64,000 nucleotides of DNA from Candidula unifasciata. Lineage: Eukaryota; Mollusca; Gastropoda; Stylommatophora; Geomitridae. Shown here piece after piece: positions 160-52,775 of this stretch (position 1 is its first letter; each line of letters starts with the position of its first letter). The position numbers and the translations under genes were made by a program. A model generated the notes under the pieces. The model saw nothing but the letters and a program-made list of their open reading frames with translations, did not search any database and had not been told where the DNA came from. The DNA is taken from positions 1,133,033 through 1,197,032 of the forward strand of contig CAJHNH020002557.1 of NCBI GenBank assembly GCA_905116865.2, given 5' to 3'.

Positions 160-3100
160 CTGCCGGAGGACAAGAACACCCACAATAAGCATCTCAAACT
201 AACTCAGTCAAACAGGAAAGTGTCACTACCACAACGAAGAAAAACCACAATGGTATTCACCAGGGTTATTCCACTGGTGGCAGGCTGAATCCGGGCGTCA
301 TAGGCCTAGCAAGTGGCCCGCGGATCATTAGTCAACAACAGGGTGTCATCTATCAGTCAACAACAGGGTGTCTATTAGTCAACAACAGGGTATCTATCAG
401 TCAACAACAGGGTGTCTATTAGTCAACAACAGGGTGTCATCTATCAGTCAACAACAGGGTGTCATCTATCAGTCAACAACAGGGTGTCTATTAGTCAACA
501 ACAGTGTGTCTATTAGTCAACAACAGGGTGTCTATTAGTCAACAACAGGGTGTCTATTAGTCAACAACAGGGTGTCTATTAGTCAACAACAGGGTGTCTA
601 TTAGTCAACAACAGTGTGTCTATTAGTCAACAACAGTGTGTCTATTAGTCAACAACAGGGTGTCTATTAGTCAACAACAGTGTGTCTATTAGTGTGTCTA
701 TTAGTCAACAACAGGGTGTCTATTAGTCAACAACAGGGTGTCTATTAGTCAACAACAGGGTGTCTATTAGTCAACAACAGGGTGTCTATTAGTCAACAAC
801 AGTGTGTCTATTAGTCAACAACAGTGTGTCTATTAGTCAACAACAGTGTGTCTATTAGTCAACAACAGGGTGTCTATTAGTCAACAACAGGGTGTCTATT
901 AGTCAACAACAGGGTGTCTATTAGTCAACAACAGGGTGTCTATTAGTCAACAACAGGGTGTCTATTAGTCAACAACAGTGTGTCTATTAGTCAACAACAG
1001 GGTGTCTATTAGTCAACAACAGGGTGTCTATTAGTCAACAACAGGGTGTCTATTAGTCAACAACAGTGTGTCTATTAGTCAACAACAGGGTGTCTATTAG
1101 TCAACAACAGGGTGTCATCTATCAGTCAACAACAGGGTGTCATCTATCAGTCAACAACAGGGTGTCCATTAGTCAACAACAGGGTGTCTATTAGTCAACA
1201 ACAGGGTGTCATCTATCAGTCAACAACAGGGTGTCCATTAGTTAACAACAGGGTGTCATCTATCAGTCAACAACAGGATGTCCATTAGTTAACAACATGG
1301 TGCCTATTAGTCAACAACAGGGTGTCCATTAGTTAACAACATGGTGTCCATTAGTCAACAACAGTGTCCACTAATTAACAGCAGGGTGTCTTTTAGTCAA
1401 CAACAAGGTGTCCTTTAGTCAACAACAGGATGTTCTTTAGTAAACAAAAATATGGATCTAGCATTATATGCCTGGTATGCCACTGGCAAGAAAACAAAAA
1501 AGTACATGTAAAAAACCTGCAGCCACAATGAGAACACCTACTTTTATCAACTTGCTTGTACAGGTCTAGAGCTGTTGTCAGGTCCCACATCTAGAAAACA
1601 TCCAACATCAAAGTTTGTAAATGTATTTTCAGGTCAGCCGGGTCAAGAACCAGCATCATAACAGATAAGCCACATGCGCTCCATCCCCATCTTTGGCAGC
1701 CAGCGCAGAGTACCAATTCTGATGGAACCGGCAGCAGTCTCTGTTTATGTCTTGCTATTTCACTGAAAGTTGGCCAGATCTCCTGGTCATTTCCATTGCC
1801 TCATTCTCTACAGATTGTAACGACCTATATACACTTCTGAATTGCTTACTCATTCCCCCAAGTCAAGGGTTCACAATCCCCAAAGTCATTTGGCTATACC
1901 CTGTGTCAGAGCACACCCCTAGACAACAGCCAAAGACACAAGCAAAGGAACATTGCAGGAGGAGAAGAAGAATTGAATAACTTCTGACCACTGGTCATGC
2001 AGCTGAGAATCTTCACTATAAAACATAATTTTTTTTTCTCCAAAACCATCTGGTGAGGAACTAAACAGAAACCATGGCTGAACCACAGGGAATTTATATC
2101 TTCACAATATCAATTTATTTTCTTCCTAGTGTTCCTCGGCTGTAAACTCTGGCGGAAGGCTCCGGTTATTCATCCACTTCTGGACTTCAGCCTTGTTCCA
2201 GAGCCTACACACTTGAAAAAAAAAAAGATCTGTTTTTACAGATCTGGCTTATTGATATGCAGTCTGTTGCTTCTTTGCTGATCCGGCAGTTGTACTTTGA
2301 CTTCGTAGGAAAACTCCCCCCCCCCCCCCCCCCAAATGAGGCTCTAGAACCCACAAAGGGTTATTGTATCTTTGAAACATTATTATATTTTAGGTCACAC
2401 TTCCTTGGATTAATTTCCTGTAGATTTCATACAAATTCTTCATCTCACTGCTAGAATAATTCATGTACTGACTGAGCCTGACAGAAATGAAGGAAACATG
2501 CAAACACCAGAAGAGATTCTACCACATGTAAGGGCTGTACCTGAATGCTGCCGTTAGCATGTCCAGTGAATAGATACCTCCGTGGGCAGGATCCCATTCT
2601 GTTGGAGCCCTCACATTCATGGACGCAGAAAGAGCTTATTGTGCTGCCATCTACGGAACGTATCACACAGATTCTGTAGGCAGAAATGAGAAATATGTTA
2701 TATCACACAGATTCTGTCGGGAGAAATGAGAAATATATGTTATATCACACAGATTCTGTCGGGAGAAATGAGAAATATATGTTATATCACACAGATTCTG
2801 TCGGGAGAAATGAGAAATATGTTATATCACACAGATTCTGTCGGGAGAAATGAGAAATATATGTTATATCACACAGATTCTGTCGGGAGAAATGAGAAAT
2901 ATGTTATAACACACAGATTCTGTCGGGAGAAATGAGAAATATGTTATAACACACAGATTCTGTCGGGAGAAATGAGAAATATAATATCATCACAAAGAGA
3001 AATGAGAAATATATTATCATCACACAGATTCTGTCGGGAGAAATGAGAAATATGTTATAACACACAGATTCTGTCGGGAGAAATGAGAAATATAATATCA

Positions 3101-6100
3101 TCACAAAGAGAAATGAGAAATATATTATCATCACACAGATTCTGTTGGGAGAAATGAGAAATATGTTATATCACACAGATTGTGTCGGAAGAAATTAGAA
3201 ATATGCTATATCACACAGATTCTGACAGGAGAAATGAGAAATATGATATCAGTACAAGATTCTGGCGGGAGAAATGAGAAATATAACATCATCACATAGA
3301 TTCTGTCAGGAGAAATATGTTATATCAGAAAGATTCTGTCAAGAAAAATGAGAAATAAGCTATATCACAAAGATTCTGTCGGGAGAAATTAGAAATATGT
3401 AATATACCACAGATTCTGTAGGGAGAAATGATAAATATGCTATACCACAGATTCTTTTGGGAGAAATGAGAAATATGTTATATCACACAGATTCTCCAGC
3501 CCTAAGTGCTTTCATAGCCACTGCATCTTCAATTTATTGTACCCACATTCAACCTCTGCCTTGTTTTCCATGGTGTTTGAAATGGCCTCAATACCTCAAC
3601 TCCCAGGACAGGATGCAGTTTATGAGCCAATTCTTCTTGATGTTCAGATCATGCAGGATGTCGATGTTTTTCTTTCTCTTGACCCATGGCATGCAGGATG
3701 TCGATGTTTTTCTCCCTCTTGACCCATGGCATGCAGGATGTCGATGTTTTTCTCCCTCTTGACCCATGGTATGCAGGATGTCGATGTTTTTCTTCCTCTT
3801 GACCCATGGCATGCAGGATGTCGATGTTTTTCTTCCTCTTGACCCATGGTATGCAGGATGTCAATGTTTTTCTTTCTCTTGACCCATGGCATGCAGGATG
3901 TCGATGTTTTTCTTCCTCTTGACCCATGGTATGCAGGATGTCGATGTTTTTCTTCCTCTTGACCCATGGCATGCAGGATGTCGATGTTTTTCTTCCTCTT
4001 GACCCATGGCATGCAGGATGTCGATGTTTTTCTTCCTCTTGACAAATGGTATGCAGGATGTCGATGTTTTTCTCCCTCTTGACCCATGGTATGCAGGATG
4101 TCGATGTTTTTCTTCCTCTTGACCCAAGGTATTCTAATAATTTTTCTGTAGCCTTTCAGTTCAAGGAGTAGCCGTAGTGTAGCGGCTAGACGCTCACGTG
4201 CGGATCGGAAGGTCAACGGTTTGCTCCCTTCTTTTTTTAAAGTGACCCTGACTCTCGGGTTGACCCAACCTTGAGCGGGTACCGGGTGCAGTCCAGGGAA
4301 GTAAAGGCGGCCGGCCTGATGCCGACATCATCCATCTTGTGTTAATTGATCTATAAAAATATAGGTCTAGCCCTATATGCCTAAAGACTGAACCCTCACA
4401 TCTTTGAAAACATCCGAGCTGCTGTTTCTGGCTGCCCAATTCTTCAGCCAAACATAACTAACTATACATTCTACTCACTGACCTGTGTCCACTGGAGCTC
4501 TGTCTGATAAACAGCTGGTCAGTGTTGGAGACAACTTTCTGCACAAACAGTTGCTGGTCATCCTGCTCCCCAAAAGGACCTGTATAGTTGTAGAGGAGAA
4601 GAGAAGAAGACTGGTGATTCAGTTTCAGCGATAGGGAACTTTTTCTTTCTTTCTTTCTGATAAGAGTTATTTGGATACTTATAACACCATTACACTCAGA
4701 GGAAAGGCAAGACAGACTTTTAACCAGATTGTGACCGGTACCATCAGTATTGGAACTCTGCGCTGGCTGCTGAAGATAAGGATGGATCAAGCATGGGAAT
4801 GCCCCGAATGCTGTGATGTCAATTCTTGACTCAACTCAACATCATCAATATCCTGTGTTGCCATTCTATGTCACATAGGGCTCACAATCTATTTCTCAAT
4901 TCTGTTCTGATCTGTGGAATCCTTTCAACATCAAGAGTGGAATTCAGTTCACCACTTTGTGTTTTTCTCCTCAACATTCATATTAGGTGTTTTTTTCGGA
5001 TGTACTCGTTTCCTCAGCCCTTTATTTCCCATTGTAGTGCCTGTCTGGTAGATTCTCTGCTGGTTTCTTCTCAGGATATGTCCAATATAATGCCATGATC
5101 TTTGTCTTATACCTGTTGTTACCAACAGTTGCCAAAACATTTCTCTTATTTCTTCACCCCTGTTGAATTTATCAGTACTGATGTGCAGCTGCATAAAAGA
5201 AGACTGGTGATTCCGTTCACAGATAGGGGAACTTTTTGTGTGTCTGACTAAAGTTATTTACATAATAATATCATCCATGGGACTGCAGAAATATCAGAGA
5301 CACTGAAAAGTACTTTATAGGAAGCGAAGAGAAGTGCTCGTTCCAGATCTCTTTTTGCCCTGACATCGCGAGGCATTCCAGGAGTAGAGAAAAGATGATG
5401 AAGATCCATAGGACACACAAAGTTATCAACTTCAAGATCAGCCTGCTCTATTGGGTCAAACATTAAAACTGGGTAAGAGCTTCTGGCCAAGATTCAACAC
5501 TTAAGGGAAAGGCGAGGCTCACATACATACAATGAGACTATTCTTTGGCCAAAGGAATTAAAACTCTGCACTTGCTACTGAAGATCGGGGCAGTGCGCTT
5601 ATGGAAATATCCTGAGTGCTGTGATGTCGACTCTTAATTCAAGATTTATTTCAGTAAACTATGTGATTATTATATTTTTTCACACTTTTACACCCCCACT
5701 AAAAACAAGATAAACAAAGAAACTAAAACATTCTTTAAAGTGAAACCCACACACCAGACTTAAAAAGAAAGTAAAGACAAACTCAGACTTCCAAGAGAAA
5801 GTCAAACAACAGACTTACCAAAATCATTACCAGCGGCATAACTAACAAGTGGATCCACATCATCCAGGGACACGATCTTGAATGAGGCAAGCGGTGTGGA
5901 ACCAGGCTGTGTAGAGATCATGCCTCGAAACCTGGTCACAATCCAGGTCCTCACATGGTTGTACTCAGCACAAACTGGCAACAAACACAAACAGATGTAG
6001 GTATATGATACGAATATTTAAGGAACTTCAAACTAAAACCTTGAAAATATGATAGGAATTACAATAACCATGCCATAGTCTTGTAGCCTGTCAATATTGT

Positions 6101-9100
6101 TATTAAGGCTGTAAAGAGTGTTAAGCATGTGCTACAGTGCAGATGAACACAGTTATATCGAAATGAGCGTATAAAGATAGCTGCCTCTGATGTCGTTTTT
6201 TTTTTTTTACATGCACCAAAGAGAAGCCGCATTCTGTTACCCCTTTTCTGACAAATGAAGGGGTAAAACCTTTAGATATACATTGGTGAATGAAGGTCCT
6301 GTATAGGCATGCATGCCTTTCAGTCCTGCAATCAGCAGTTTTCCTAAACAAGCCACTCAATGGCTGCAACTGACTCTGGAGTTGCAACCAGGTATGTTGC
6401 ACCCTGTCATGAACAGTCTCAAAGAAGTCACAGTGTTCTAAAACTTCCTACTCCACTCATACATCTGCTTGACTGACAGCCTGCCTGTACAGGATATGTA
6501 AGTAACTTTAAACAAAAAATATAATATCACCAAACTGCCCAGCATCAAGTTTGTTTTCCTTGGTCTCCCTCTGCCTACACTTCCTCCATAATTTTTAGAG
6601 ATCCTATAACAATAACAAGCATATCTGATACTAGATGGTTCTCAGACAGCAGGACTTTGGTGACTGGGCTGCATGTTCCTCTGCCCCTACCTCTCCCAAA
6701 GAAGATCTATAACAATAACAAGCATACCTGATACCAGATGCTTCTCAGACAGCATGACTTTGGTGACTGGGCTGCGATGGACAGTGAATGTCTGGAACAG
6801 CTGAGGCCCATGACCCACTGTCTCTGGGTGTTGAACTATCACCCTAACAGTTCCTGAGCTTGTCCCATAAGCGATCTCTATCCAGTTACCACTCAAACCT
6901 GAGGATAATTTACACAGGGAAAAAGTTGATACTTTCATGGGATGTCATTGCTGTAAATTAAATAAAGGACCCTTCTCCCCGCCTTCAGGCACATTGGGCT
7001 GGACCTATATTTTGAAAGACCAATAGAGCACTCGGTGGATGATGCAGCCAACATCACGCTGGCCACTTTTACTTCCCAGGGACTTTTACCTAGTATCCAT
7101 TTAAGGCTGGGTCAACCTGGGAGCCAAAATTTTTTTTTTAAGAAAAAAAAGTCTTGCTCAATTCAGATTTGAACCCATGACCATCAGATCCATAGGCGAT
7201 GGCCTAGTCACTATACCATGGCGGCTCCCATGTGAATTCTGTATATTTCAAATATATATGAGGTGAGGTGACCAGCAGCTTCCTGTGCCACTGTTTCCTC
7301 CAGCAACTTAAAAGATCATTTATCGTTTATGATAATGTAAGATGAAAGCAGAACATTTACCCCTTTCACCCCGTGTACTTTAAAAAAAAATAGGTCATGA
7401 TCCTGTTAGTATTTCCAAAAACAAAATGTAAAAACAACAAAAAAATTGTACAAAGCTCATTAATAAATTTGTTAACAATGTATTTATTGATTTTTAAATT
7501 TTATTTTCGACATATTAAAAAGACATATGAAAGGAGTAATCAATAAAACATTTGCAAGGCGAGGCATTAAGCTCAACAATCCATTGGGCCTTTAAAAAAA
7601 AACACACACACACGTATCGGGTGACTCATGCACTGACCCTGTGACCTTAACCACAAAAGCTTATGAGAAAATCTGTCATTTAGCACAAAGGAAAACCCTT
7701 CTTAATGCTAGTGTTAGGTAATTTATGAATATCATGACTTCCTGAACATTTGCACAGGCACAAACTCAGCCAATTTCATGAACTAAACATCTCATAAACA
7801 GATGCCGATAGGGAAGTAAGAAAGGTAACGTTTGCTGGAAGTGTTGGTTTTCAGCCTCTCCAGCTGAAAAGATTAAGAAAGATAAACTGTTATTTGTTCA
7901 TGTGAATTATCATCATCAAATCAGCAAGTCTTTTACAGAACGTCGCTCTCTTCACGGCACGCCTGAAAGTATCCCTTTCCCTAGCCAGCTCTCCGGCCCC
8001 ATGTGCTTTCAATGCTAATGCATCTTCAATGTCTTGTATCCATCTTCTTGGTGGTCGACACCTGCCTCGCCTTTCACAAACTGCACCTTCCATCACCGTC
8101 ATGTGAACAGAAGAGATAAGTAAGTGGATGGCTCAGCTGTATGGATGAGGCAACGACCACTAAATAACACTGACCTGATCTGTTATTCTCGTGATCACGT
8201 GAGACTGTGAAACACGACATCTTAGGCTTATCGACACAGTAATATCTGGTAAGTATGAGACCAACTTACTTGTCTTTGGAGTCAAGTAGACACTGAGGGC
8301 AGTGACCATGTCGGAGGCTGGGTCGGTGTACAGCTTGGTCACCAGCAGATCGTTGTCCTTCATGCGCAGGGGAAACTTCTGCATGTCTGTCGACAGAAAT
8401 CCAGTCTTAGAAACAACCTGGCATACTAGTCTTTTATCATCAGAAATAAGTTAAAAGTTAGTTTCGTATCCTTTACAGGACGTTGCAGAACCAACCCCAA
8501 CAGCCCCTGGCTGTTGTGTGGTTTTTCTAGACAAATTTACGTCCAGTAGTTTGCCATTGCTTTCTTGATACCACTGTCGAAACCAATGCAAGGCATATGG
8601 CCTGCAGCTGGGATCGAACCCAGCATTCCAGCATTACGAAGCGTTGGCATCGACTTAGCCACAGAGCCAACACCAGAAGAAGACAATAATCAAATCAATC
8701 AGAAAGTCACCAACATTTGCACAAGAGTACCATATTATGGACAGATCAGAACAAGTCATCTGCGCTTCAGAACAGGGCACAATAGACTTTTGCAGCAACA
8801 TGTACACAAAATACAAGACTGCAGAATCAGATTGGTGCCTTAGACTACAGATTAAGACCTCCAAGACTGCCCTAAATACAACATGTCTTCTTCTTTGTAA
8901 TTCACCCGAGGTAAACTCTGGCAGAAAGTTCAGGTTGTCGGTCCATCTCTGGACTTTAGTCTTGTCCCAGAACCTCAGTGTTGCATGCACATCCGTTTTA
9001 CTGATCTAACTCAACTATATGCAGATTGTTGGTCACCTGCCTTTCAGGCAGATGCACTCCTTGAAGAAGGCCCCCTCTCCTACTACATGCCTGTCAGGGA

Positions 9101-13094: not shown

Positions 13095-16000
13095 ATACAT
13101 GCACCAAGTGAAGGGGGGGAAAAACGCACCTATGTAATAGATGGATCCGTCCTGACAGCCCAAAAGTAGGAAGGATCCAGCCATGTCATAACTTGTGATG
13201 GGCACCACATCCTGAAGCTGTGGAAAGACAAAATACAGTCAAACACAGTCACTTTACATCCTTTATCTACATTCATTCGTTCATTCCCTGTCCTGTTGTG
13301 TCATTACATGTCACATAGGGCTTCCAGTCTAGTTCTTCATTCCTTTTTATGCTTTGCAATAATTTCAACATCATGGATGGAATCCAGTCCAGCATTTTTG
13401 CCTTGTCTCATCAATATTCACCACAGGGTTTCTCTTGGACCTCCTTGCTTCCTCAATACCTCTATCTGTCACTTCACTGCATGTCTGTGACTCTCTGCTC
13501 ATCTCTTCCCAGAATCTGTCCAATTTAGCGTCATCTTCTCTGTCTTACAGATGATGGTACAATCAGTTTTTTAAAAATTATTTTTAAAAAATAGCTACTG
13601 CTACAAAAGACAAGAGAACCATCTAACATGCCTAGAGTGCAATGAAAATAGACTGAAGTGCTGACTATGGTATGTGGAGGTAAACTGATGAATGACAAGA
13701 AGATGTTGTCAAGGCCCTTTGGAAGCGAGCGCACAGTCTGGACACAAACATATTGTCATGCTCTGAAGAGGATGGTGTAACAGAGTGTCCAGGGGATCTG
13801 GCCGACACTCAACACAGACGAGAGGCAAGACGGACATATAATCAGAGTGTTAACCCTACCATCAGAACTGTAACTGCGCTGGCTGCTGAAAATAGGGACT
13901 GAGCACTTATGAAAATGTCCAGTGCCAATGGTTCTCAACTCAACTCATATATTTGTAAACAGTACCTGCCAGTGTTGTGTCATGGAATGCCAGACTCCCA
14001 CTCTTCCTGTACGGCTCAGAGCCACCAGCTGGTTCCCAATGAAGAACAAGTTGTCTACGGACACATGCAGATCAAACACACCTGCAAGTTACAGAAATCA
14101 AGTACTACTATAAAATATCCGCACAAGAAGCCACAAATCACAAATCCCACAAACCACAGATCAAACACACCTGCAAGTTACAGAAATCAAGTACTACTAT
14201 AAAATATCCGCACAAGAAGCCACAAATAAAGTTCAAAGTTTAATCATACATCAACCCTATGTAGGTTCCAGGGCACACACACACAAAATATAGACCCACT
14301 GCCTCCCTAACAAGCATGTCCTAGAAGTCAACTAATCAGGGCTGTTTCCTTTAGAGTCGGAGTGGCTCTGCCTGAAAGACCAATAGTCTGCATACAAATA
14401 AGCCAGATTTGTAAAATGGATGTTTATGCAAAACTCTGGAACAAGACTTAAGTTCAGAAGTAAAGAACCAGAACTTTCTGCCGAAATTTACAGCCGGTGA
14501 ACGCTAAGATGAAATGTAAAGGTTTCCCAGCGTGGGTTCTGGGTCCCCAGTGGGGTTTGGAGAAGAATGGACCCACTGCTTGAAACACCCAAAGTAGTTA
14601 ACTTTCACAAGGTTGACAGGGGACAGCGGTTTTATTACTTTTCCCCCAAAATGGGGCCCCAGAACCAATAAGTGGAGGCTGACCTACTCTAAAATGTGTT
14701 TCTCCTCTCCTTACAATACCATGGAACAGAAGTACAAGATTAAAAGATGTTATTTCCCCGACAACCTGGGATAAAAGTACAAGATTATAATAAGATTACT
14801 TTCTTGCGTACCAGAAGACTGACTTAGTCGATTCTCTTCTATCTTGGGGTGTAGAGGTGGGTCACGACCCTTTCAGCAGTGGTTCTCAACCTGTGGGTCA
14901 CGACCCTTTCACAGGAGTCACCAAAGACCACCAAAAAAGTTATGAAGTAGCAACAAAAATAACTATAGTTGGGGGTCGCCACAGCATGAGGAACTGGATT
15001 AAAGGGTCGCAGCATTAGGAAGGTTGAGAGCCACTGGTGTAGAGATAGCACCAGAAGACAAAATACAATATCACAAGGTTTGATTTTTCTATAAAATAAA
15101 ACACAGATAGAGTAAGGGGGGAAAAAAAACCACCTTCAATTTGCTATTAAATATTACTGCTGAACGAAAGCTCAAAAGAAACAAAGGGAAATAATATGGA
15201 AACGCATAATAAAATCAACAGGAAATAATATTGCATTCAACTGATCTTCTCGTGTGGGTTCCAGAGCTCCATTTTGGGAGAAGGGAAGGAGGAGGGACAT
15301 ACCCAGTGCCTCCCTAACAAGAATGTCTTAAAAGGTGATAAATTAGGGTTTTTTTCTCCAGAGGCGAAGTACAAACAGTCTGCATAAAAATAAGCAGATC
15401 TGTAAAACAGATGTGCAGGCAAAGTTTAAGTTCAGGAACAAGACTAAAGTCCAGAAGTGGACGAACAACCAGAACTTTCAGCCGGTGAGTGCTGACAGTA
15501 AGAACACTAACCTATCTGTCTGCTTTCTCCATCGTCCCCGACAACCCACAGCCAAACAGTAGAACCAGACGATGCAGCCACCATTTTGTTGTGGGAGTTT
15601 TCTTGGTTGGAGCTGATAACTTTGGCACTGAGAGCAACCCTCTCCACCTGGGTGTCCATGTGTTGACTCTTCCACAGCATGTGCCAGCCGGTGGAATCCT
15701 TCATTCTGTAAGGCAGGAGGTACTGACAACTGATATTGACCTAATATCTATGTGTTGTGTCCTTATGTGCTGTGTTATGTCCATATGTGCTGTGTTGTGT
15801 CTATATGTGCTGTGTTATGTCTATATGTGCTGTGTTATGTCTATATGTGCTGTGTTGTGTCCATATGTGCTGTGTTGTGTCTATTTGTGCTGTGTTGTGT
15901 CTATATGTGCTGTGTTATGTCCATATGTGCTGTGTTGTGTCTATATGTGCTGTGTTGTGTCTATATGTGCTGTGTTGTGTCCATATGTGCTGTGTTGTGT

Positions 16001-22000: not shown

Positions 22001-25000
22001 TGGAACTGGAATTTCTACCTTGAATGACTCTGGGAACTAGATCCACTGTTTTCTTGTTGCCTTCTCATGACTGGTCGGCGATGGTCCGAACTCTCCACAC
22101 TGACCACTGACTGGCGAAAGCTGGACGAACTTGGTAAGGGGGGAGCTTGTGGGGAAAAACATAAATGTTTTTAAAAAAAAAGAAAAAACCTGCCCCATAA
22201 AATACGGCAGCAAGAATGAAACACTTCACAAACACATTGCTCCATCCCTCATCTTCAACATGCAGTGAAAAGTTCAGATTCTGTTGATGGTAGTAGCAGT
22301 TCATTATAAGTTCGTCATTCAATTCCTCTAGCGTAGTGTGTCAAAGAAGAAGCTGTATTTACCCATTTTTGGGGTTAAAAACAAGAAAGGAAGATTTTAC
22401 CCTGAGGATTTCGGGCACAATGGCTAGTGTAACCACCAGGAACTGCGCAGGTCATAATGTTTATTTCTGCCCCTGACAGGAAGTTGGGGGAAACTCCATA
22501 ATGGACGGACCCAGAAAGGTGGCATGCCAGCATATTTTTGTCTTCAGCATGTGTGGATATCATTACAGTCAGCTGATTTCATCCAGCTGCTCAGTGACTA
22601 TATGTAGTCTGTTACGATCACAAAATATAAACACTGACAAGAAAAATCTGTCCAATTTGGCAGTAAAACTGTGCATACACCTAAAGCGGAAGCTTTATTG
22701 CAAACCTTTGAGAGAGAATGGATGACAACAGAGACACACCATATACATTAAAACAAAAACAAAAAATTTACAATAAAAACTGTGTGCACAAAAGAGCTGA
22801 ATGGCATACTAAGAAACTATGAGGGAGATCTTTATCTTCTTTGTCTTCACGTTCACAGACTCAACTCCGGCAAAAAGTTTTGGTTGTTTGCCAACCTATG
22901 GGCTTAAGTCTTGTTCCAGAACCCCACCGTTGGGTGCACACCCATTTCACAGATGTGGCTTACCTGCATGCAGACTGCTGGTTCCTTGCCTTTCAGACAG
23001 ATGCACTCTGACTTCGATGGAAGCCCCAGTTAGTTGACTCTTTAACCACACTTGCTAGGGAGGCAGTGGGTCTATTCTTGTTTTGCCCACAACAGGGCCC
23101 TGGAACCCACATGGAGAGAAGGAAAGATAATAAATATGTAGACATACAAACACCTGGAGTCACAAACTGGAAAAAGAATCACAGAGATGAATGGAGGCAG
23201 GTAATATCTGCAGCAATGAACCTCAAGAGCTCAGAAATGATGACCAAGAAGAAGTAGTAGTTTGTCAAACAGCTATTTTATTATCCAGTTTTTTTTTCTA
23301 TGCTGATGAAAGCTTTCTAGCCAGAACAAAAATTCCATTTTTCAAGATTGTGTTTTGGTGGGAAGCTTGTTAGGAATTATTTATTTTTTAGTTTCAGAAA
23401 GACTACTGTCATCGGTACATCCATCCCTTCCCTCAGTGACCCCTGTGGCATAACACAGTGCCACGACTTGGATAAATAAATAAATGGATTACTATAAATA
23501 TGTAAAAGTTGAAAATACTTACTAGGAGGCTGGAAATATCCGTGAAACAAAACATCTCCACAGGAAGAGTGATCCAAGTCTTCACACAGTGCGAGCCGAC
23601 CAACTGGGTAGAGAAGAGGAAACAGTTATAAACAAAGCAGTGTCTGCTGCTTCTGTCTGTTTATGCTGTGGAGAGGAACTTTATTCCCGGCCTTAACTGG
23701 TTGTAATTCCCCAGCCTCTTCATAACATAAAACAATGTTTATCTGGAAAGAAGGAACTGTGACAGCGATCTGCCTCTCCATAACACAAAACAATGTTTAT
23801 CTGGAAAGAAGGAACTGTGACAACGATCTGCCTCTCCATAACACAAAACAATGTTTATCTGGAAAGAAGGAACTGTGACAACGATCTGCCTCTCCATAAC
23901 ACAAAACAATGTTTATCTGGAAAGAAGGAACTGTGACAACGATCTGCCTCTCCATAACACAAAACAATGTTTATCTGGAAAGAAGGAACTGTGACAGCGA
24001 TCTGCCACTCCATAACACAAAACAGTGTTTATCTGGAAAGAAGGAACTGTGACAACGATCTGCCTCTCCATAACACAAAACAATGTTTATCTGGAAAGAA
24101 GGAACTGTGACAGCGATCTGCCTCTCCATAACACAAAACAATGTTTATCTGGAAAGAAGGAACTGTGACAACGATCTGCCTCTCCATAACACAAAACAAT
24201 GTTTATCTGGAAAGAAGGAACTGTGACAGCGATCTGCCTCTCCATAACACAAAACAATGTTTTTATCTGGAAAGAAGGAACTGTGACAGCGATCTGCCTC
24301 TCCATAACACAAAACAATGTTTATCTGGAAAGAAGGAACTGTGACAACGATCTGCCTCTCCATAACACAAAACAATGTTTATCTGGAAAGAAGGAACTGT
24401 GACAGCGATCTGCCTCTCCATAACACAAAACAGTGTTTATCTGGAAAGAAGGAACTGTGACAACGATCTGCCTCTCCATAACACAAAACAATGTTTATCT
24501 GGAAAGAAGGAACTGTGACAGCGATCTGCCTCTCTATAACACAAAACAATGTTTATCTGGAAAGAAGGAACTGTGACAGCGATCTGCCTCTCCATAACAC
24601 AAAACAATGTTTATCTGGAAAGAAGGAACTGTGACAACGATCTGCCTCTCCATAACACAAAACAATGTTTATCTGGAAAGAAGGAACTGTGACAACAATC
24701 TGCCCTGAAACATAACACTGAAAAGTTCACATGATATGTGACAATAGCAGCTTCACATAAAATGTTGAACTGAAAATCAACATCACAGTACTCGGGACAC
24801 TCCCATAAGTGTTCCTCCTCATCTTCAGCAGCAACTGAAGAGTTCCGATTCTGATGGTTTCCATAACTGTCTGATTGTATATCCTCTCCCTTGAGTGTTG
24901 AGCGTTTGCCAGATCCCCTAGTATTTCCTCACAGCGCCATTCTCTTCAGACCGAAATGATATAATTTTAACGTAAAATGTAAGTATAGAGCAAGGAGGAA

Positions 25001-39591: not shown

Positions 39592-39759
39592 TTATAATTT
39601 CTGATGTTGTTCCAGCCATTTCTTGCAAATATTTTTCACTGCAGACTGACCAAGCCTCTGTGCTGCTCCGGCTATCCTCTGGACATCGTCCACGCGGTCT
39701 CTCTTCACCGCCAGGAGATAAGCTGACCTCAGCTTCCCACATAGAATGAATGCATTTAT
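39592..39759 (-). CDS. ZFYVE26: ZFYVE26-like last coding exon with stop
   Basis: Encodes [20 protein letters not shown] and ends [12 protein letters not shown] before TAA at 39592-39594. Human ends with ICCKLRSAYLIAVKQ and then ICAQWL, so the C-terminus is close to full length. I saw no clear AATAAA signal in the 250 bases downstream. Confidence 0.95.
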   Translation of the reverse strand: MNAFILCGKLRSAYLLAVKRDRVDDVQRIAGAAQRLGQSAVKNICKKWLEQHQKL

Positions 39760-40395
39760 CTGTTGAAAGATATGTGGTAGTAAAAAAAAACCATTCAAAT
39801 TTATTATTCACTAACGGAATGCATTTCATTCTATGCATTTGTTTTCAATAAGATGCAATGAGTGGTGTATGCAATGCGCACTACATGTATTGTGACAAAA
39901 GAACTGCACTGAAAGGATCTTACAGCGAAACTGACATTGTAGATACTGTTGTCTCCCTGGGCACGACCATATATCTGAAAGTTGATGAAGCAGACATAGG
40001 GGAGCCGGTAGAGGAGCATAACATTGAGCTGACCACTGAAGAGCTACGAGAGTTATGAACAAACAAGAAAAAGTATAGGGATGAGGAGGGAGAGAAAGTG
40101 TCTCCAGAGAAGGAAAATAGCAACAAAAAGGTAGCTATCCTAACAAGTGACAAGAAGATAAGGAGACGACGCTGAATAGGCAACACTCAAAAGACTACAC
40201 GTTCTTCAGGTCAAAAGAGGTGTTGCCCAACATGAACACTGTTCAGGTAGCCAAAGAAGAATAGTAAACCAACACAGAACTGGTGTTATCAGTTGCCACA
40301 CAATGAGGGATATGCTGAAGATGGGATCCGAGCGCTTATGTACTTGTTCAATGTACAATGAGGATAATCTTTCAATTGACTGACTGACTGACTGA

Positions 40396-40426
<31 letters not shown>

Positions 40427-43400
40427 ACTGACTGACTGACTGGTTGGCTGACTGACTGACCAACCAACAAGTGACATAAAATAAGCCTTGCAGTACCGTG
40501 ATGAATAAAATTAGTGAACAAGTGGACTCTAAATTGAGCTGCTGTTTCCAGAGCCACAAATATCTCCAATGACAATGTCATTAATCACTTTAGAAGGGTC
40601 TTAATAAAACGACAGACAACATTAGACAGGTTTTTAAAACCTTCCTCGCCAAAGAAACAGAAGAAAGTCACTGATAACGACAAAGACAGGAATTTAAAAA
40701 AAAATTTAAAATTAATAGAAGGAGATTTTTTATACTACATTTAAATATACATCATGTAAAAATAAAGCTTTGATAAAGAATTATGTGTAATGGTAAACAA
40801 AATGCAATTTATTGCCTAAAAATGGTCTTTCTCATTCATGATCCATTTCTTTGTATTTTCACAGTTAAGGTGACAGTCGTTTTTTAAATTTCATTCTGTT
40901 AAAATCTTAAAAGAGATTAATTGATTTTCTGTAAAATGAAATGGGAAAATGTGTTTCGAGATGTGAACTTTCTGAGATATGAACCACAGTCAGGAACGAA
41001 TTAACTTTGCTAGTCGAGGTACCACTGTATATCGGTCTGCCATAATTTATTCTAAAACTATGGTTATCCAAGTGAGTCAAATACTAAAAAATAGACCAAC
41101 CTTGTTGCTATCATTCCTAAGAAGCTGTATCAATGCATCACTTTCATCCTGTGCCTGCAGACATAAAGATTACCATCACAATGCTAGTGTATTCTGTTGT
41201 AAACATAGGTAAATGAATCACACAAGAACACATTAGAAAAATACATGGGACCACTTATATGATTGCGTTACCTGAGTGTAGACACTGAAACAAATCTAGC
41301 TCGCCTTCGAGGCCAACATTATAACCAACTCCTCATGGGAACTATAAGCAGAGGTACCTTAGAGTGGCTACTGCGTTTGAGGACTAAGCATGAAATGGGA
41401 ATGCCCAATGTGCAGTGATGTTGATTGTGATAATATAACATAGGACTCATGCTGATAATTCTCTTGAAAGAGATCTAACTGTCATAAGAGGTTAGGCTGT
41501 GCCTCCCATTCCAATAAGCCTTTGAAATCTCTCCAACAATGGCTACACTGTTATAAGAAATGTGTGTGTCCTCTGAAAGAGACTTAACTGTCATGAGAGG
41601 CTAGGCTGTGCCTCCCATCCCAATAATAAGCCTTTGAAATCTATCCAACAATGGCTACACTGTTATAAGAAATGTGTGTGTCCTCTGAAAGAGACTTTCT
41701 TCAGAGGGCTGAAGGTTTCACATCTCCAGGTGAGCAAGTGCATTTTGTCTGGCCTCAAGTCAGACATTTCTTTTGAACAGACCCTCTAGTTACCAATCCA
41801 GCATCACCTGGGACTTCTATCTTGCAGCCCAGTGTCATACAAACACTTGCCACAAAAGTCATACATATCAACATTAGTCAATGAGGCCTCAGAGATGGAG
41901 TTTTACAGAAAAATGCTTAAAATGTTTTTTTTTTCAGGTGGGTCTGAGTAATTTAAATGTTCTGAAAGAGGTAAGGGCATGAAGATAATTTATCAAAACA
42001 GAGAGACGCATATACATAATTCTCTGGCCATATTATGAGAAGTGAAAATCTGGAACCTGTTGTGACAACTGGAAAGAGAGACAGCCGAAGACAAAAGAAG
42101 ATACAAGAGAAGATTCTTGAAAACATTTTGTCATGACATGGAGGGTTGTCAGTACATGAACTGATACAAGAAAAGATTCTTGAAAACCTTTTGTCGTGAC
42201 AGGGAGGGTTGTCAGTACATGAACTGATACAAGAGAAGATTCTTGAAAACATTTTGTCATGACATGGAGGGTTGTCAGTACATGAACTGATACAAGAAAA
42301 GATTCTTGAAAACCTTTTGTCGTGACAGGGAGGGTTGTCAGTACATGAACTGATGCAAAATAAGATTCTTGACAAACCTTTTGTCATAAAATGGAGGGTT
42401 GTCAGTACATGAACTGATACAAGATAAGATTCTTGAAAACCTTTTGTCATAAAATGGAGGGTTGTCAGTACATGAACTGATACAAGATAAGATTCTTGAA
42501 AACCTTTTGTCATAGCATGGAGGTTTGTCAGTACATGGACTGATACAAGAGAAGATTCTTGAAAACCTTTTGTCATAGCATGGAGGGTTGTCAGTGCATG
42601 AACTGATACAAGAGAAGATTCTTGAAAACCTTTTGTCATGACAGGGAGGGTTGATGTATGACACGCTAGATGTTGTTAGGGCGCTTCGGGAGCAAGTAAA
42701 CATTGCGGTCACAGATGGAACATTATGATCTGAGGAGAAAGGCGCTGACAGGAGTTACCAGGGGATTTGGCCGACACTTAACACTCAAGGGAAAGGCGAG
42801 ACTGATGTACAATCAGACAGTCACTTGTACCATCAGAATTGGAACTTTTACTGCTGAAGATGGGGGACAGAGCACTTATGGAAGTGTCCCGAGTGCTGTG
42901 ATGTCAATTCTTAACTCAACATTCAACAGTGAAAACATGGAAAACAAGCAGACAATCTGCAACACAAGGCACTTGTTAATGATAGTGATGATAGTTACCA
43001 CAAAAGCAAAGAGCATACCTGGTTATGACTATCAGCGATAACCAGCAAAGAGGCCCCAACAATTTCATCGATCCCGTCGTCATCCACCAGTCTCTCACGG
43101 ATCAAGGACTGGATAAGGGTGCTGATGTCTGTAAACCTGCCCTGTTTGGCTAGTTCTCGAGAACAGTGGGTGAATATCACAGTTGGATTTAACCGACATT
43201 CCTGGAGTGAGGAGAAATATCAATAATATGCATTAATGATATTTCACAAATTTGATTTGTTAATAGCCTGTTAATAACCAAATTTCTACTCTGATTAAAT
43301 CCCCACTGATTATTGGTATCATGAAGCCTCACAGGCTGAAATGGCTGGGGCATACTGAGAGAATATCTGATGACAGAGAGGTTCTCTCCCTGTGGGTTCC

Positions 43401-46400
43401 GAGGCCCTATTGTGGGAAAAACAAGAATAGACCCACTGCCTACCCAAAAGCATGTCATAAGAGTCAACTAACTGGGAGATTTCTTTGAAGTCAGCATGCA
43501 TCTGCCTGAGAGGCAAGGAACCAACACTCTGCATATAAATGAGGCAGATCTGTAAAATGGATATGCATGCAACACTCAGGTTCTGGAACAAGACTAAAGT
43601 CCAGTGGTGGATAAATATCCAGATCTTTCTGCTGGAGTTTACAGCTGGTGAATGCAAAGAAGAAGAAGAGGCGTTTAAAAACTGAATACTCAAGGGAGTT
43701 GAATGGTCATAGACCATGAGGCAAAACAAGAAGATGGTGGATAGATAATAAATCCAGACAGACCTACAAACACTCAATCACCTACTGGAAAGACAGGGCC
43801 AACCAGAGAGATGAATGGAGGTGGGTGATATTTGCAGCAATGAACCTCCAGGGCTTGGAATGCTGAAGAAGACCAACCAGAGAGATGAATGGAGGCAGTT
43901 TATATTTGCAGCAATGAACCTCCAGGGCTCGGAATGCTGAAGAAGACCAACCAGAGAGATGAATGGAGGCAGTTTATATTTGCAGCAATGAACCTCCAGG
44001 GCTCGGAATGCTGAAGAAGACCAACCAGAGAAATGAATGGAGGCAGTTTATATTTGCAGCAATGAACCTCAAGGGCTCGGAATGCTGAGGAAGACCAACC
44101 AGAGAGATGAATGGAGGCAGTTTATATTTGCAGCAATGAACCTCCAGGGCTCGGAATGCTGAAGAAGACCAACCAGAGAAGAGATGAATGGAGGCAGTTT
44201 ATATTTGCAGCAATGAACCTCAAGGGCTCGGAATGCTGAGGAAGAAGAAGAAGAGGCTGTTACTGTGATACTTCTTATGTCCTGTACGACATCGCTCTCT
44301 TAACGACACATCTGAAAGTCTCTCTTTCTCTAGCCAATTCTTCAGCCCTATGTGCTTTCATAGTCAATGCATCTTCAATGTCTTCTATCCACCTTCACAG
44401 TGGTCAGCCTCTGCCTCCTCGTCCTACAACTGCACCCTACATCCCAAGAGGCAAGGAACTAACAGTCTGCATACAAATAAGCCAGATCTGTGAAATGGAT
44501 GTGCACACATCACTCAGGTTCTGGAACAAGACTAAAGTCAGCAGGTGGACAAACACCCAGAACTTTCCACTGGAGTTTACAGCCGGTGAATGCAATGAAG
44601 AAAAAGAATCATCATAATTAAAACAAAAATGATTAGACTGCTGAATTACTACAATATCAGGGTCAATTAAAAACACAAACAGGTCATCAATCAGGTGCCA
44701 TCTTCACACTGAAGGTTGGTTGCAATGGATCTCCAAAACACTCTGTTCTTGGTTGCACACTCTCCCAGGTTGTTGTTCGTCCCTTTCTTGAATGTCTTCC
44801 CACTTGTATCACTCCCCTTGTTTCATTGTATACCTCTTGCTCTCTTGTCCTCGACTTTTCCTGCCAGTATTGGTTTTAAAAGTGTTATGTCTTCTAATGT
44901 GGCCAGAGTATTCCCACTGCCTTTCTTTTTGTATTTATTTCAGTATCTTTTTACATTCACAATTTTTTCAGGACTTCTGTATTTTTCTTCTTTTTCTTGT
45001 CGCTCATCCAAGTGACACAGCTGCATTATGCCTATTTACTGCAAAGCTGCGATATTCCTGAGCCTTTGTTAACTTCTTCTTCTGCCTTTCTATCCCCCAA
45101 TGTAGCATAGGCCCTCAACCAACTCACGCCAAGTCGTTCTATCCTTCGCCATTGCATGGAGCTCTCCCTATGTCCTCCCAATCTTTCTAACCTCATTCTC
45201 CAGCTCTCTTCTCCATGTGTTTTTTGGCCTTCCTTTATTCCTATGCCCCTGTGGGTTCCAATGCAAAGACATTCTAGTTATGCTGTTCTCCTGTTTTCTC
45301 AGTGTGTGCGCTATCTAACACCAGCATCTTTTCCTCACCTCCTGATCCACTGGAGCCTGTTTAGTTCTCTCCCAAAGTTCTACATTAGTTATTCTATCAT
45401 ACCATTTTATTCCCTCTATTCTGCGCAGGCACCAGTTAATGAATGTCTGTAATTTATTAGTAATTGCCTTCGTTGTTCTCCATGTTTCCGCCCCATACAA
45501 TAGTACTGATTTAACATTAGAATTAAAAATTTTTAGTTTAGTATTTCTTTTAATTTCTTTTGACCTCCACAAATTCCCTAGTGCTATGAAAGCCCCTCTT
45601 GCCTTTTGTATTCTTATTTCAATATCTCTACATCCAAGTGACATAGCTGCATTATGTCTATTTACTGTAAAGCTGCGATATTCCTGAGCCCTTGTTAACT
45701 GGGTTCCGGATGGAACAAACCTCTGAGTTTGATGCTTACAAACATGTATTCATGTGAAATAACTTCCCGTGCGGGTTCCGGGGCCCTATTATAGGGAGAA
45801 CAAAAAAAAAGACCCACTACCTACCAAAAAAAGTATGTCGTGAGAGTTGACAAATTGGAAGCTTCCTTCAAAGTCGGAGTGCATCTGCCTGAGAGGCAAA
45901 GAACCAGCAGCCTGCATACAAATGAGTCAGATCTGTAAAATGGATGCCCACGCAACACTCAGGTTCTGGAACAGGACTGCAGTCCAGAAGTGGATGAACA
46001 ACCAGAACTTTCCGTCAAAGTTTACAGCTGGTGAACGTGAAGAAGAAGAAGAAGAAATAACTTACCCGTACAATTCTGACTCCCAAGTCAAAGCCAGCAG
46101 CAAAATTATTCCCACTCAGAACAACCTGGACAAGAAAAGTTGTTTACAGATGAGGCAGTTAATCAAATCTATTATTTCTTCTTTTCTCTACTCCTGGAAT
46201 GCTTCACGGTGCCAGGGCAGAAAAAGATCTCTGAACAGGCCCTTCTGTTCGCTTCGTATAAAGCACTTTTCAGTGACTCTTCATTTTCTAGGATCACTTA
46301 AGTATTTCAGATTATCATCCACAAAAGCTGAGTTGATTTGATTCAGAAATCGACATCACAGCTTTTGGGGCATTCCCATAAGCGCTCCGTCCCAATCTTG

Positions 46401-49400
46401 AGCAGCCAGTGCAGAGTTCCAATACCAACGGTGCCAGTAGCAGTCTGATTATACGTCTGTGGTCTTTTCTCTCAGTGTCAAGTATCAGCCTGATTCATTA
46501 CTTAAATGCATCAGTCTCACCAGACTGCGATGATTCATTTGCTCCTCTGAATTGCACACATGCTCTCACAAGGCCTTCACCATGCCTGCCTTATCATGCA
46601 TCAGTATTCCATCAAGTTGTGCAGAGCCAGCCAATATGTCTGCCTATTAATTTCCCAGCAAACCAGCATACCTTGAAAAATGATCAGACAATGCTTTTCA
46701 CTTGTGACCTCTGAAGTGAAGCCACAGACTGCGATGATACATTTGCTCCTCTGAATTGCACACATGCTCTTACAAGGCCTTCGCCACGCCTGTCTTATCA
46801 TGCATCAGTATTCCATCAAGTTGTGCAGAGCCAGCCAATATGTCTGTCTATTAATTTCCCAACACACCAGGATACCTTGAAAAATGATCAGACAATGCTT
46901 TTCACTCATGACCTCCAAAGTGACCTCCGAAGTGACCTCTGAAGCGAAGCCACAGACTGTGCAGGTCAGGATTTTTTTTTAAAACCCTGTAAAGAAAAAT
47001 AGATCCCTTACTTAGGATCTGAACCTGGGTCTCCGGAATGAAAGCCCAGCATTCTAAACTGCTCAGCCAGCTGATCCTCTTGGGAGCCACCGTGGTGTAA
47101 TAGCTAGACACTCGCCTGTGGATCGGAAGGTCATGGGGTTTGGGTTCTGGTAGAGCCGGACATTTTTAAAAAATGACCTAGGCTCCCAGGCTTGAGTGGG
47201 TACCAGGGAAGTAAAGGCGGCCGGCTTGATGCTGATCACATACCCCACCACGTGCTGATTAGTCCAAAAAATATAGGTCTAGCCCTATATGCCACACACA
47301 TCTGAAAGCATGGAAAAGGGTCTTTTACTTTTAGTCGATCCTCTTAAAAATGAAATGAGAACAAAAGCAAAAGAAGAAACAAAACAGATGGAGGAAATTT
47401 TTTAACATGAACAGCCCAAGAGGATTTACACCACAATCTGCTGACCCACCATGCTAACCAGCTCAGTGCGGGCAGAGCCTGGGCCAAACAAAGTGGAGAT
47501 CTGTGTGGAGGACCTGGGAAGGAACTGTGTTGATCCTGCACCGGCCACTCCCAAAGACTGAGTTAAACACTGCTCCAAGAACTTGGTCACTTCAATCTGC
47601 AGGCTTATGGTGCGAATATGCCTGAATAATAGAAAGTCAATTATATATAAGATGGGCAATGAGTAAGGTATGTTAACATTTGACTGACTGGATTACATTT
47701 GTGAAGATCAAAATCTGTTCTTGAATTTAAAGAAAACGAAAATAATGTCCACAGATAAAACTGGCTGTCACCCAAAAATAACAATAAATGAGGAAGAAAT
47801 TGAAAATGTCACAAACTTTGAATATCTAGGCTTTATTATAAACAACAATGGAGACTGTTCAACCGAAATTAAAAGGAGGATGGCCATAGCAATGCAAAGA
47901 TTGAACAGCCTTAAAAGTCTATGGTTAAGCATCAGCAAGGAAATACAAAAGGAGGCATGGGACTTACTGCTAGTCATGATCGATGTAGGGGTGGAGATGG
48001 AGGTGGGGAGGGGGCCTGGGAATGTGGGACTGCTGTCAAAGCATTAAACATGTCTTCTTCTTCTTCTTTCGTTCGCCTGAAATAAGTTGTCTTTATCAGC
48101 AATTTTGTCTCTTGTATAAATGTCACTGTTGTTGTTAGTTCATTCAGTGGTCCATAGAGTTTACGTTCCACTGTTGTTCTTTCTGGCCAAAAGGTTTGCC
48201 TTAATGTGTCAAATTCGGTGCAGTCCTCGAGTACATGCTCTGCTGTCTGGGGCACATTTCCACAGGTGCACATAGCTGATACACCTATCTTGAATTTTGT
48301 GTACATGTGGTTACGTAATCGGTTGTGCCCTGTTCTGAGGCGGAGTATAATGACTTGTTCTGATCTGTCCAAAATAAAATAGTCGTCTTGTGCTGGGGCT
48401 GGTGGTTTCCTGATTGATTTAATGATTCTTCTCTTTTGATGGTATGTGACTGGTACATCCGGCTGCACTTTTGTCGCACCTTCTCCTGCCAGTTGATCAG
48501 CTTTCTCATTTCCAGGCACTTCACAATATGATGGTATCCACTGCATTACAACTCTTTGCTGAAGGCTCAGTTGTGTCAGCAGTGTTTGCAATTCTGGTAG
48601 TTTCCTAGACTGAAGTGCTTCAAGTACTAATTTTGCATCTGTAAGCATTACCACATACTGGGAGCCAAGATTGGTATTTAGCAGTTTCTCTGTTGCTATC
48701 TTGATAGCCTGAGTTTTTGCATCATAGTTATAGCAGTACTTTCCGGTTGGTATGCTGGACTTATCCCTAGTACCATCTGGGAATTCTATGAACACTCCAG
48801 CACCACCATTTCTAACTGCACTTTCTGCGGACCCATCTGTATAGACTATGACCCATTGTTCTTGTAGGTATTCTTCATCAATATAACTGAGGGTGGCCAT
48901 TCTGCGTTGAACACTATCTTGTTTTTCTTGTCAAATATTCCTTTCACATTTGTCTGGATTTGTAATGTTAGCTTGCATTTCTCTCTCCATGGGGTTTGTT
49001 CTGGAATACTGTTAAGTGGACAACCAATTTCTGGAAGGTCAGCATGTGATTGTCATGAAGTGCACACGGGCCACAGAGGCCATGTGAACTACCTGAAGTA
49101 AGGAAAAGTGAGCCTGGGTTGTGAACAGGCTGGGGACAGTCATCGACCGGACATCCTAGGGGACGGTCTGGACAGCTGTAGTGTGGCCATGCCTCATGAA
49201 TAATGGCTTTAGTTATTGAGTTAAATAGAATTAGATAACATCTTGAATTATTTAGAACGATGGATGTAGAAATGATAGAATAATGAAGGTAAAAGTAACA
49301 GAGCTCAACAGGTTGTATCTACATCAGACGTTTTCGTGCGAATTGTGACCACATTCTGATAAAGTTTGTACGTGTTGTCATGGCCGTGATTGCAGTGTTA

Positions 49401-52400
49401 ATGTGCTTTGAGGGTATCAACAATGAACTATGTGACAGCATTCATAACTCTTGGGACTTATCAAGCTCAGGGAGTCAGAGCTGAATATGAGAAGTACAAA
49501 TGAGTACGTCAGTCAGTGCAAGTTGCATGACCTTTAAAAACTCATGCTCTGACCTTGCCACCCGCCTCTCGACCCCTGACACTGCCCATGGCAATGGCGA
49601 GTGTGAATAGCAAGACGCGCCAGCGTAAGAACAGTTTTCCACAATTATAGCCTGGGATTTCAGGACCATTCTTGTCAACATTTGTGTTAAGTGTGTTTCT
49701 CCTCAGACCACCAGCTCTCATCCTTACTGCAATCATTTCTTCCTTCATTCCTATTTCCTTCCTGACGTGCCCCCTCCACATAAAACGGTTCATGGCATTT
49801 TGTTACGAGTCCACCTCAACACCTGTACCATTTATTTCCCACTTCCACACATCTTTATATCGCAGTAGAAGTTGACCTCGATGTTTGCATTAATTTTACT
49901 GTACATGCATGGAAATAAAAAGGCAGCCAACCCTTGAATGACATAAAGCCAATTGGAGGACAGCAGAAAGGAAAATGAAGGACTGTAAAATGACATGGGA
50001 TACCATGGGCAGAAAGGCAACAGACCTGCAGCAATGGAGAACATCTGTGAATGCCTTGTGTGTCAACGGTCACATGAAGAGGATCCAGTGAAAGATACAG
50101 AGATAGAGCTGCTGATGCTAAGGTCAAGGGTTCAAATACGCATGGAATCAATTTAAAAAAAAAAAACATGATCTTGGCTCCCAGGTTGACCCAGCCTTTA
50201 ATGGGTACCAGGCAGAATCCTGGGAAGTTAAGGCAGCCAGCAGGAAGGGCCGCTTGGTCTATACAAATACGAGTCCAGCCTCACAAGCCTGATGTACCAC
50301 CAGCAGGTTAAGGAACCTTTTCTGTTTTTAAACAGAGAGAGTGGTTCATTCTATTTGCACTGATTTTTTTCTCTCTATGAGTTGATCCTGTTCAATCTGT
50401 GTTTAAAGGTTATAATTAGGGTATTTAATGTTGTTTCTTCCTTTTTCATCTGCATGAATGTTGTGGTTGATTTGGTTCATCTTCCCACAGGTGTTTCTTA
50501 AAATTTGCTATCAATGTCTGGCGTGTCACTCAGGTGTCAGCTTCTCTTGCATCTAGGTGTGTCTGTGTGTGCATATGTATATCTGTATATATGTAAGTGT
50601 GTGGAATGTGCGTGTCTGTGTGGGTAGGTAGGTATGTATGTGGGTGAATGGGGGTGTGTTTAAGTGAGTGGGTGTGTGTGTGTGTGTGCGGGTGTGCTAG
50701 TGTGTGCATGCATTTTACCACCCATGCTTTTGTGTTTTTGTTTCTTTTTTTTTTTTAAATATTCATAATATGGATATTGTCATATGAATATAACATGCTT
50801 ATTGATAAAAATACAGCTGCAGTGTGAAAGATGGGTGTTTGGAAGGGCGGAATGTAAGATGGGGCTGCGTGCCCAATTTGTGACCCTTTGAAAATAAAGT
50901 TCAGTCGTTCGTTCATTCGTTTGTTCTCTGCTACTTGAGGGTCTGTTTGATGTAGCTATCTGCACTAATTTAACTTCATACTTCAAAATACTATGAGACA
51001 AAAAGTCATTTCCTTTACTTCTACTTACTTTTTCACTTCCTCAGGTGACAAAGTCATTCTAGCAGAGGATTCTGGGAGCTGTTTGTCCCACTGTGGGGGC
51101 TGTTTCCCAGCGGTCACTGGCGTGGTTGCAGCAAGAGGGTGGCGCACACTGCCCCACTGACCCGGATCGAGATAAGCCTGCATGAGAACAAAGCCAATCA
51201 TCATGTACTAATGTTTACTGCATCATGAATGAAATAATGAAGCTAGTTCAAATCAACCCTGAAAAACCTTCTGAGCACAACATTAACTATCTTCTTCTTC
51301 TAAGCATTCACCAGCCATAATCTTCAGCACAAATTTCTGGTTGTTTGTCCATGTTTGGACTTTGGTCCTACCCCAGAACTTCGAGTTTTGGGTAAAATCT
51401 GATAAGCACAACATAAACTTCAGCACAAATTTCTGGTTGTTTGTCCATGTTTGGACTTTGGTCCTACCCCAGAACTTTGAGTTTTGGGTAAAATGTGATA
51501 AGCACAACATAAACTTCAGATTCACCTGCACTTATTACCTAATGCAGCACAGCTACCCAAAGTAGCTGTTGGTTAGTACTGAGAGAGGTGTAGTGGCTAG
51601 AGGCTCGTCTGTCAATCTGGAAGGTCCTAGGTTCAGGTCCTGTCAAAGCCAGACTTTTGTTTTTCTTAAAAGATGACCTTGGATTCCAGTTCGACTCAGC
51701 TTGAAATGGGTACCAGGTAAAGTCCTGGGAGGTAAAGGCGACAGGCGTGATGTTGACCACATTACTCACCAAGTGCCAGTTGGTCTATAAAATATAGTTC
51801 TAGCCTTAAAGGCCCAATACGCTGGAAGATGTGGAAATGGATCAGTAACTTTACTGAAAGAGTTAACAAGCCAGAGACTCAAAGAGCTACTAATCAGATG
51901 TGATCCAACAGGAGCAAATCCTAGAAACCCTGTTCAACTGTATAAGAATTAATTTTGAGATTTTTTTGGGGATGTCAACATTCACTCATTGCACTCAACA
52001 ATTCAATCCACCACCTGCATACACCCAGTGCCTTCAATCACTGCATCCAACCGCTATACATAACATGTATTCAAAACACAACAATTCTTTTGATAAATAA
52101 ATTATTACTGATCAGTTAGGATTAAGGTCCCTGTGTGGGTTCCGGGGGCCCCATTGTGGGAAAAAAATAACAGACCGATTGCCTCCCCGTTAAGCAAGTC
52201 ATAAGAGTCGACTAACTGCGGACTTCCTTCAAAGTCAGAGTGTATCTGCCTGAGCGGCTAGGGACAACCAACTGCACAAAAATAATCCAGTAAAACATAT
52301 GTACACGAAAACTCAGGCCCTGGCACAAACCCAAAGTCAAAATGGATGAACAGCAAGGATTTTCCGCCAGAGCTTACAGCCAGTAAACATAGAAGAAGAA

Positions 52401-52730
52401 GGATGATTATCATCACAGCACTCTGGACAGATCACACAGATCATCCGATCTCCACCTCAAAAGCTCCACAAGTGTAAAATATCTGATGACTCTTGTTTGG
52501 TGTTGATTAGTTAAATGTCTTGCCCCCTTGGTGAAATGTTCATTTCTTGCCACTCCAGGCTACACCCCATGTCCACTAATAAATCTGTCTAAGAGGGAGG
52601 AATCAACAGCATCCAAATAAGCCAGATCTGTAAAATGGATATACATGCAACATTCAAGTTCTGGAACAAAACAGTCCATTAATGGACAAACAACCAGAAT
52701 TTTCTGCCAGAGTTGACAGCTGGTGAATGC

Positions 52731-52775
<45 letters not shown>

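Follow-up and report, generated by a model that had tools for sequence, protein, structure and literature searches.

The DNA analysed here is a 64,000-nucleotide (nt) stretch of the genome of the gastropod Candidula unifasciata (contig CAJHNH020002557.1, positions 1,133,033 to 1,197,032), referred to below as the window. An orthologue of KCTD3 occupies its first ∼31.6 kb on the minus strand, and intron 16 of this gene runs into exon 17 through an array of tandem copies of the exon 17 acceptor boundary (Table 1). A 19-exon model of the gene yields 672 amino acids that are identical, on comparison of the translation, to the start of the predicted protein P0001, and the end of exon 19 together with exon 20 falls in the adjoining stretch, L004. 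Protein comparisons drew on the best 120 of 1739 matches, mostly genome predictions, and 13 orthologues were aligned with P0001. Among the matches listed, the closest named relative is Bradybaena similaris, with 97% in the top local alignment and 92% when the alignment is taken as a whole.

A first-pass annotation of the window had proposed a minisatellite of decoy splice-site copies before a KCTD3-like exon numbered 17, with the acceptor at 2673/2674 on the minus strand, and all three points are borne out. Upstream of exon 17 lie 19 copies of the exon start, and Tandem Repeats Finder (TRF) places the array at 2661-3495 with a period of 40 and 21.4 copies. The typical unit spans the exon-intron boundary, with 13 exon bases and about 27 intron bases; the annotation had rightly described the unit as intron end plus exon start, while the exon stretch that exon 17 and the array have in common is 13 nt rather than the ∼11 it gave. 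Each typical unit reads as a self-contained 3′ splice site, in which a putative TATAAC branch point 24–26 nt before the AG is followed by a pyrimidine tract, the AG and the exon-start copy. In the proximal unit, the G of the AG follows the A of the putative TATAAC branch point at a distance of 24 nt. The earlier claim that every unit keeps a tract and an AG holds for 17 of the 19 exon-start copies, so that many, though not all, repeats retain the splice signal. It fails at 3182, where the copy is preceded by GACAC and the AG has become AC, and at the outermost copy (3493, at the array edge), which follows GGAG and has no tract. Two units are 71 nt long, each with a second tract that lacks an AG, and upstream AGs in the array total 21 when three TATAG sites and the edge AG are counted. 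A 36-nt junction sequence matches at least 26 of 36 positions at 18 places inside the array, compared to a best of 22 of 36 elsewhere in the window on both strands, which excludes a chance origin of the array. Intron 16 also holds a second period-40 array (3650-4126), which is purine-rich on the transcript strand (AGAGGAAGAAAAA).

The units differ in their divergence from the consensus. The nine distal units are 2.5–15% diverged, with the outermost (5%) and the unit at 3181 (2.5%) as the less-diverged exceptions, whereas 10 of the 12 proximal rows lie within 5%; the remaining two, both parts of the 71-nt units, are at 8.3%. Most proximal internal units are nearly identical, and the last, exon-nearest unit carries two changes relative to the consensus, one of them private. 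Because the distal units are diverged and the proximal ones near-identical, the array seems to have expanded on the exon 17 side. In a genome search of one 1.34-Gb assembly, the window itself was the only place found to hold the array at full length, and two further weak partial matches (66–69% identity) were read as unrelated A+T-rich repeats. The unit thus looks private to the KCTD3 locus, as judged by a search that passes over very common words. Tandem arrays are error-prone, and the copy number in the assembly may be wrong; still, the ordered differences between units, the distal-proximal gradient and the single full-length location make it very improbable that the array as such is an artefact of assembly or collapse.

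How the decoys compare to the true acceptor was assessed with small matrices built from the gene's own sites within the window. With a matrix of the 17 other acceptors, the true exon 17 acceptor scores 13.0, a value reached or exceeded by 11 of the 17 tract-plus-AG decoys and by just two of the 17 sites in the matrix itself. A smaller matrix of 15 sites gives a similar picture, where 12 of the 17 decoys reach the 12.3 of the true site. Nine of the 17 acceptor modules are identical over the scored stretch, and CGACAG alone would not disable a decoy, since the acceptor of exon 13 in the model is GACAG. Weaker decoys are therefore rejected as the cause of a proximal choice. A role for RNA structure in hiding the decoys also lacks support, as exon 17 with the proximal 327 nt of the array folds in an ordinary manner (z −0.56).

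Splicing to any of the 21 upstream AGs would run into an in-frame stop within the extension, after five residues or fewer in 13 cases. The usual read-outs are ICVI-stop and ICVL-stop, in agreement with the ICVI followed by a stop that the first-pass annotation predicted. The CTACAG that it took to mark the proximal copy, the only one leading into the open frame, also occurs in the unit ending at 3416. The same annotation offered two interpretations, namely that the array might be a tunable poison-acceptor cluster or that the locus may survive only with strong proximal-AG selection. A regulated cluster would use decoys in a tissue- or condition-dependent manner and send the stopped products to nonsense-mediated decay (NMD), with array length tuning KCTD3 output. 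The 17 tract-plus-AG decoys, most of them at or above the score of the true site, and the stop behind every upstream AG are what such a cluster would contain, and human IFI6 offers a precedent for minisatellite splice sites that are used, according to the part of PMC4526556 available. However, stops are expected by chance across hundreds of A+T-rich bases, and the common stop here is the TAA of TATAAC, which is also the putative branch point of the next typical unit. The “poison” stop is thus inherent in the splice signal, and selection is unnecessary to explain it.

Within the nine distal units, the AG letters are changed at 1 of 18 positions and the other letters at 29 of 331 (p = 1, from few letters and with little power), while tract and AG together are changed at 9 of 128 positions compared to 21 of 221 for the rest (p = 0.55, again small numbers). 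The putative branch A is altered in four of the eight distal units alignable at that point. As far as small numbers and low power allow, the decoy AGs of these nine old units show no sign of constraint. None of the best 120 of 1739 proteins terminates in a short decoy read-out, but as these are mostly genome predictions, decoys may still be spliced to at a low level and the products degraded by NMD. Regulation by poison acceptors, which gains no positive support from these results, is unlikely. A related proposal, that a length-variable array of complete acceptor modules acts as a kinetic brake that slows KCTD3 splicing in snails, with repeat length setting gene output, is improbable too. Under such a brake, the distal modules, being transcribed first, would bind amounts of U2AF and U2 proportional to the copy number, and part of the transcripts would end in NMD.

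The exon-start copies also create a potential donor (AATCT|GTGTGA), which raises the idea of an intron gain or microexon in progress, with short new exons and introns forming within the array. A new intron did arise in a potato RdRp gene by tandem duplication across a boundary, as described in the available part of PMC4974935. The cryptic donor of the snail unit scores 0.0–1.7, lower than any of the gene's 18 donors in the window (2.4–11.6), and the exon 16-17 junction shows no insert or extra residues in P0001 or the 13 aligned orthologues. This proposal is very unlikely.

The reading that we favour is that the array is probably a mirage-type minisatellite, named after the boundary-spanning repeats of amphioxus discussed below; its decoys would mostly be passed over, and the gene would tolerate the array without making use of it. 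The array would have begun when some 27 bases at the end of intron 16 were duplicated in tandem along with the opening 13 bases of exon 17, and would later have expanded to about 20 units. P0001 uses the proximal acceptor of exon 17, and the next AG upstream is 40 nt away. Scanning from the branch point halts at the first AG, according to the part of PMC1431707 available, and this rule places the branch point for 2674 within the last unit or directly beside it. Since a typical unit has a single AG, acceptor choice would then be made between modules and not between AGs. Pairing of exon 17, which is 133 nt long, with its own 5′ splice site (exon definition) may favour the exon-proximal module, and the step in base composition between exon 17 (49.6% GC) and the array (32.5% GC) may help the choice of the nearest module. 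A small amount of leakage into the first one or two units upstream is likely, and the prematurely stopped mRNA would be removed by NMD. The suggestion of strong proximal-AG selection fits here, as the decoys score like the true site, all 21 upstream AGs would truncate the protein, and both the predicted protein and its 13 relatives agree with proximal use.

Several points weigh against a merely tolerated array. Use of the proximal acceptor is deduced from a predicted protein and from homology, and the comparison of AG letters with other letters had few letters to draw on and little power. Because the in-gene matrix finds the decoys no weaker than the true acceptor, the choice must depend on more than the core signals; we infer that exon definition supplies the rest. 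IFI6 also shows, according to PMC4526556, that minisatellite units can really serve as splice sites.

Exon 17 is not the only exon of the gene with a copied boundary. The exon 11 acceptor has been copied once, 89 nt upstream, providing one decoy acceptor whose use would lengthen the exon by 89 nt and lead, out of frame, to a stop, and the exon 14 donor has been copied once, 103 nt downstream. Taken together, the cases of exons 11, 14 and 17 show that both acceptor and donor boundaries of the KCTD3 gene are affected, in 2 to about 20 copies.

Table 1. Features of the KCTD3 orthologue and its copied splice boundaries in the window.
Feature	Position	Strand	Description
Array of 19 upstream exon-start copies (AATCT...)	2674-3495	-	822 nt; units diverged distally and nearly identical proximally
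Proximal 40-nt unit	2674..2713	-	Putative branch point TATAAC, pyrimidine tract, CTACAG acceptor used in predicted protein
Exon 17	2541..2673	-	133 nt; acceptor CTACAG|AATCTG, donor CAG|GTACAG; translation identical to P0001
Intron 16	2674-4482	-	1809 nt, of which the last 822 nt are the array
Exon 16	4483..4579	-	End ACACAG|gtcagt; gene model
Downstream copy of exon 14 donor region	6604..6672	-	94% over 69 nt; donor GT changed to AT
Exon 14	6728..6898	-	Donor TATCAG|gtatgc; exon end plus donor (6707-6775) is one of two copies
Exon 11	13966..14081	-	Acceptor region 14068-14138 is the second of two copies
Upstream copy of exon 11 acceptor region	14157..14227	-	71 nt (57 intron + 14 exon), no mismatch; decoy exon start 14170

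These three cases were set against local copying in general by sampling 32-mers and seeking a copy of each within 3 kb. Local tandem copies were found at 3 of 36 splice junctions compared to 852 of 3000 sampled intronic positions (28.4%, p = 0.003), and at 296 of 2000 intronic positions within 200 nt of exons (14.8%; p = 0.20 against the junctions), where both p-values are rough, as neighbouring positions are not independent. Exonic controls gave 15 of 975 and shuffled sequence 0 of 1000. An earlier count with a 17-exon model, in which two outer exon ends were not real junctions, returned the same three junctions and 498 of 1500 intronic positions. Splice junctions as hotspots of tandem copying are thus unsupported, and boundary copying does not look favoured there and is perhaps even thinned. 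Since copies at junctions are no commoner than in introns, the boundary copies look like leak-through of a general process. In the second gene in the window, none of seven exon stretches had a local copy.

A 58-nt array at 23714-24704 on the minus strand repeats an acceptor-like motif 17 times, TTTCCAG preceded by a pyrimidine stretch, which scores 9.7 in the four copies scored. This array ends 111 nt before exon 6 and does not look derived from the exon's own acceptor.

In the rest of the window, exon-like stretches at 39600-58500 on the minus strand appear to resemble a ZFYVE26-like gene in its C-terminal portion. A 318-amino-acid open frame at 47974-48930 on the same strand presumably resembles the RNase H domain of a retroelement.

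The exon 17 array offers a natural test of acceptor choice, with 17 consecutive acceptor modules, of which nine do not differ over the scored stretch. The perfect 71-nt copy at exon 11 reduces this to a two-module case in which the acceptors share their core signals and differ in position alone; junction counts there would directly measure the effect of position and exon definition on 3′ splice site choice.

The human IFI6 (6-16) minisatellite reportedly supplies multiple splice donors, a finding attributed to Turri et al. in 1995. The introduction of PMC4526556 states that two repeat units downstream act as splice donors, and that three mRNA species result. As in the snail, minisatellite units carry splice sites, but as far as that source goes they are donors in IFI6, whereas the snail units are acceptors. 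In potato RdRp, the duplication likewise spans an intron-exon boundary and includes the branch site, the tract and the AG, according to the available part of PMC4974935; in contrast, no new intron appears to be used in the snail gene, as judged from the predicted protein and the orthologues. Mollusc-directed and general queries found no mollusc mirage among the matches listed in the literature searched, and PMC3862624, in its available part, has the word in its references only and does not describe one.

The closest parallels are the amphioxus mirages of Adh3, the globins BflGb6 and BflGb9, troponin C and PGBD5, in which tandem copies of exon-intron boundaries duplicate splice sites, yet regular mRNAs are reported (available parts of PMC3087553 and PMC3902484). 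These sources describe both acceptor and donor boundaries as affected and splice signals as kept in many repeats, as in the snail. Homogenised internal units, with boundary units excluded, are a further mark of the mirage type, and agree with the near-identity of most of the snail's proximal internal units. BflGb6 copies an intron 3′ end with the 5′ part of an exon, as the exon 17 array does, and the 40-nt snail unit falls in the 10–72 bp range given for Adh3. The differences lie in size, host and evidence. BflGb6 is described with 6 and 3 units of 150–160 bp in its two haplotypes compared to about 20 units in the snail, whose host is a gastropod and whose array is known from DNA and a predicted protein. 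Boundary-spanning minisatellites, found in amphioxus (and, for donors, in human IFI6) in the literature searched, would extend to a mollusc. By its structure, the snail array appears to belong to the mirage kind, new in host and copy number and not in kind.
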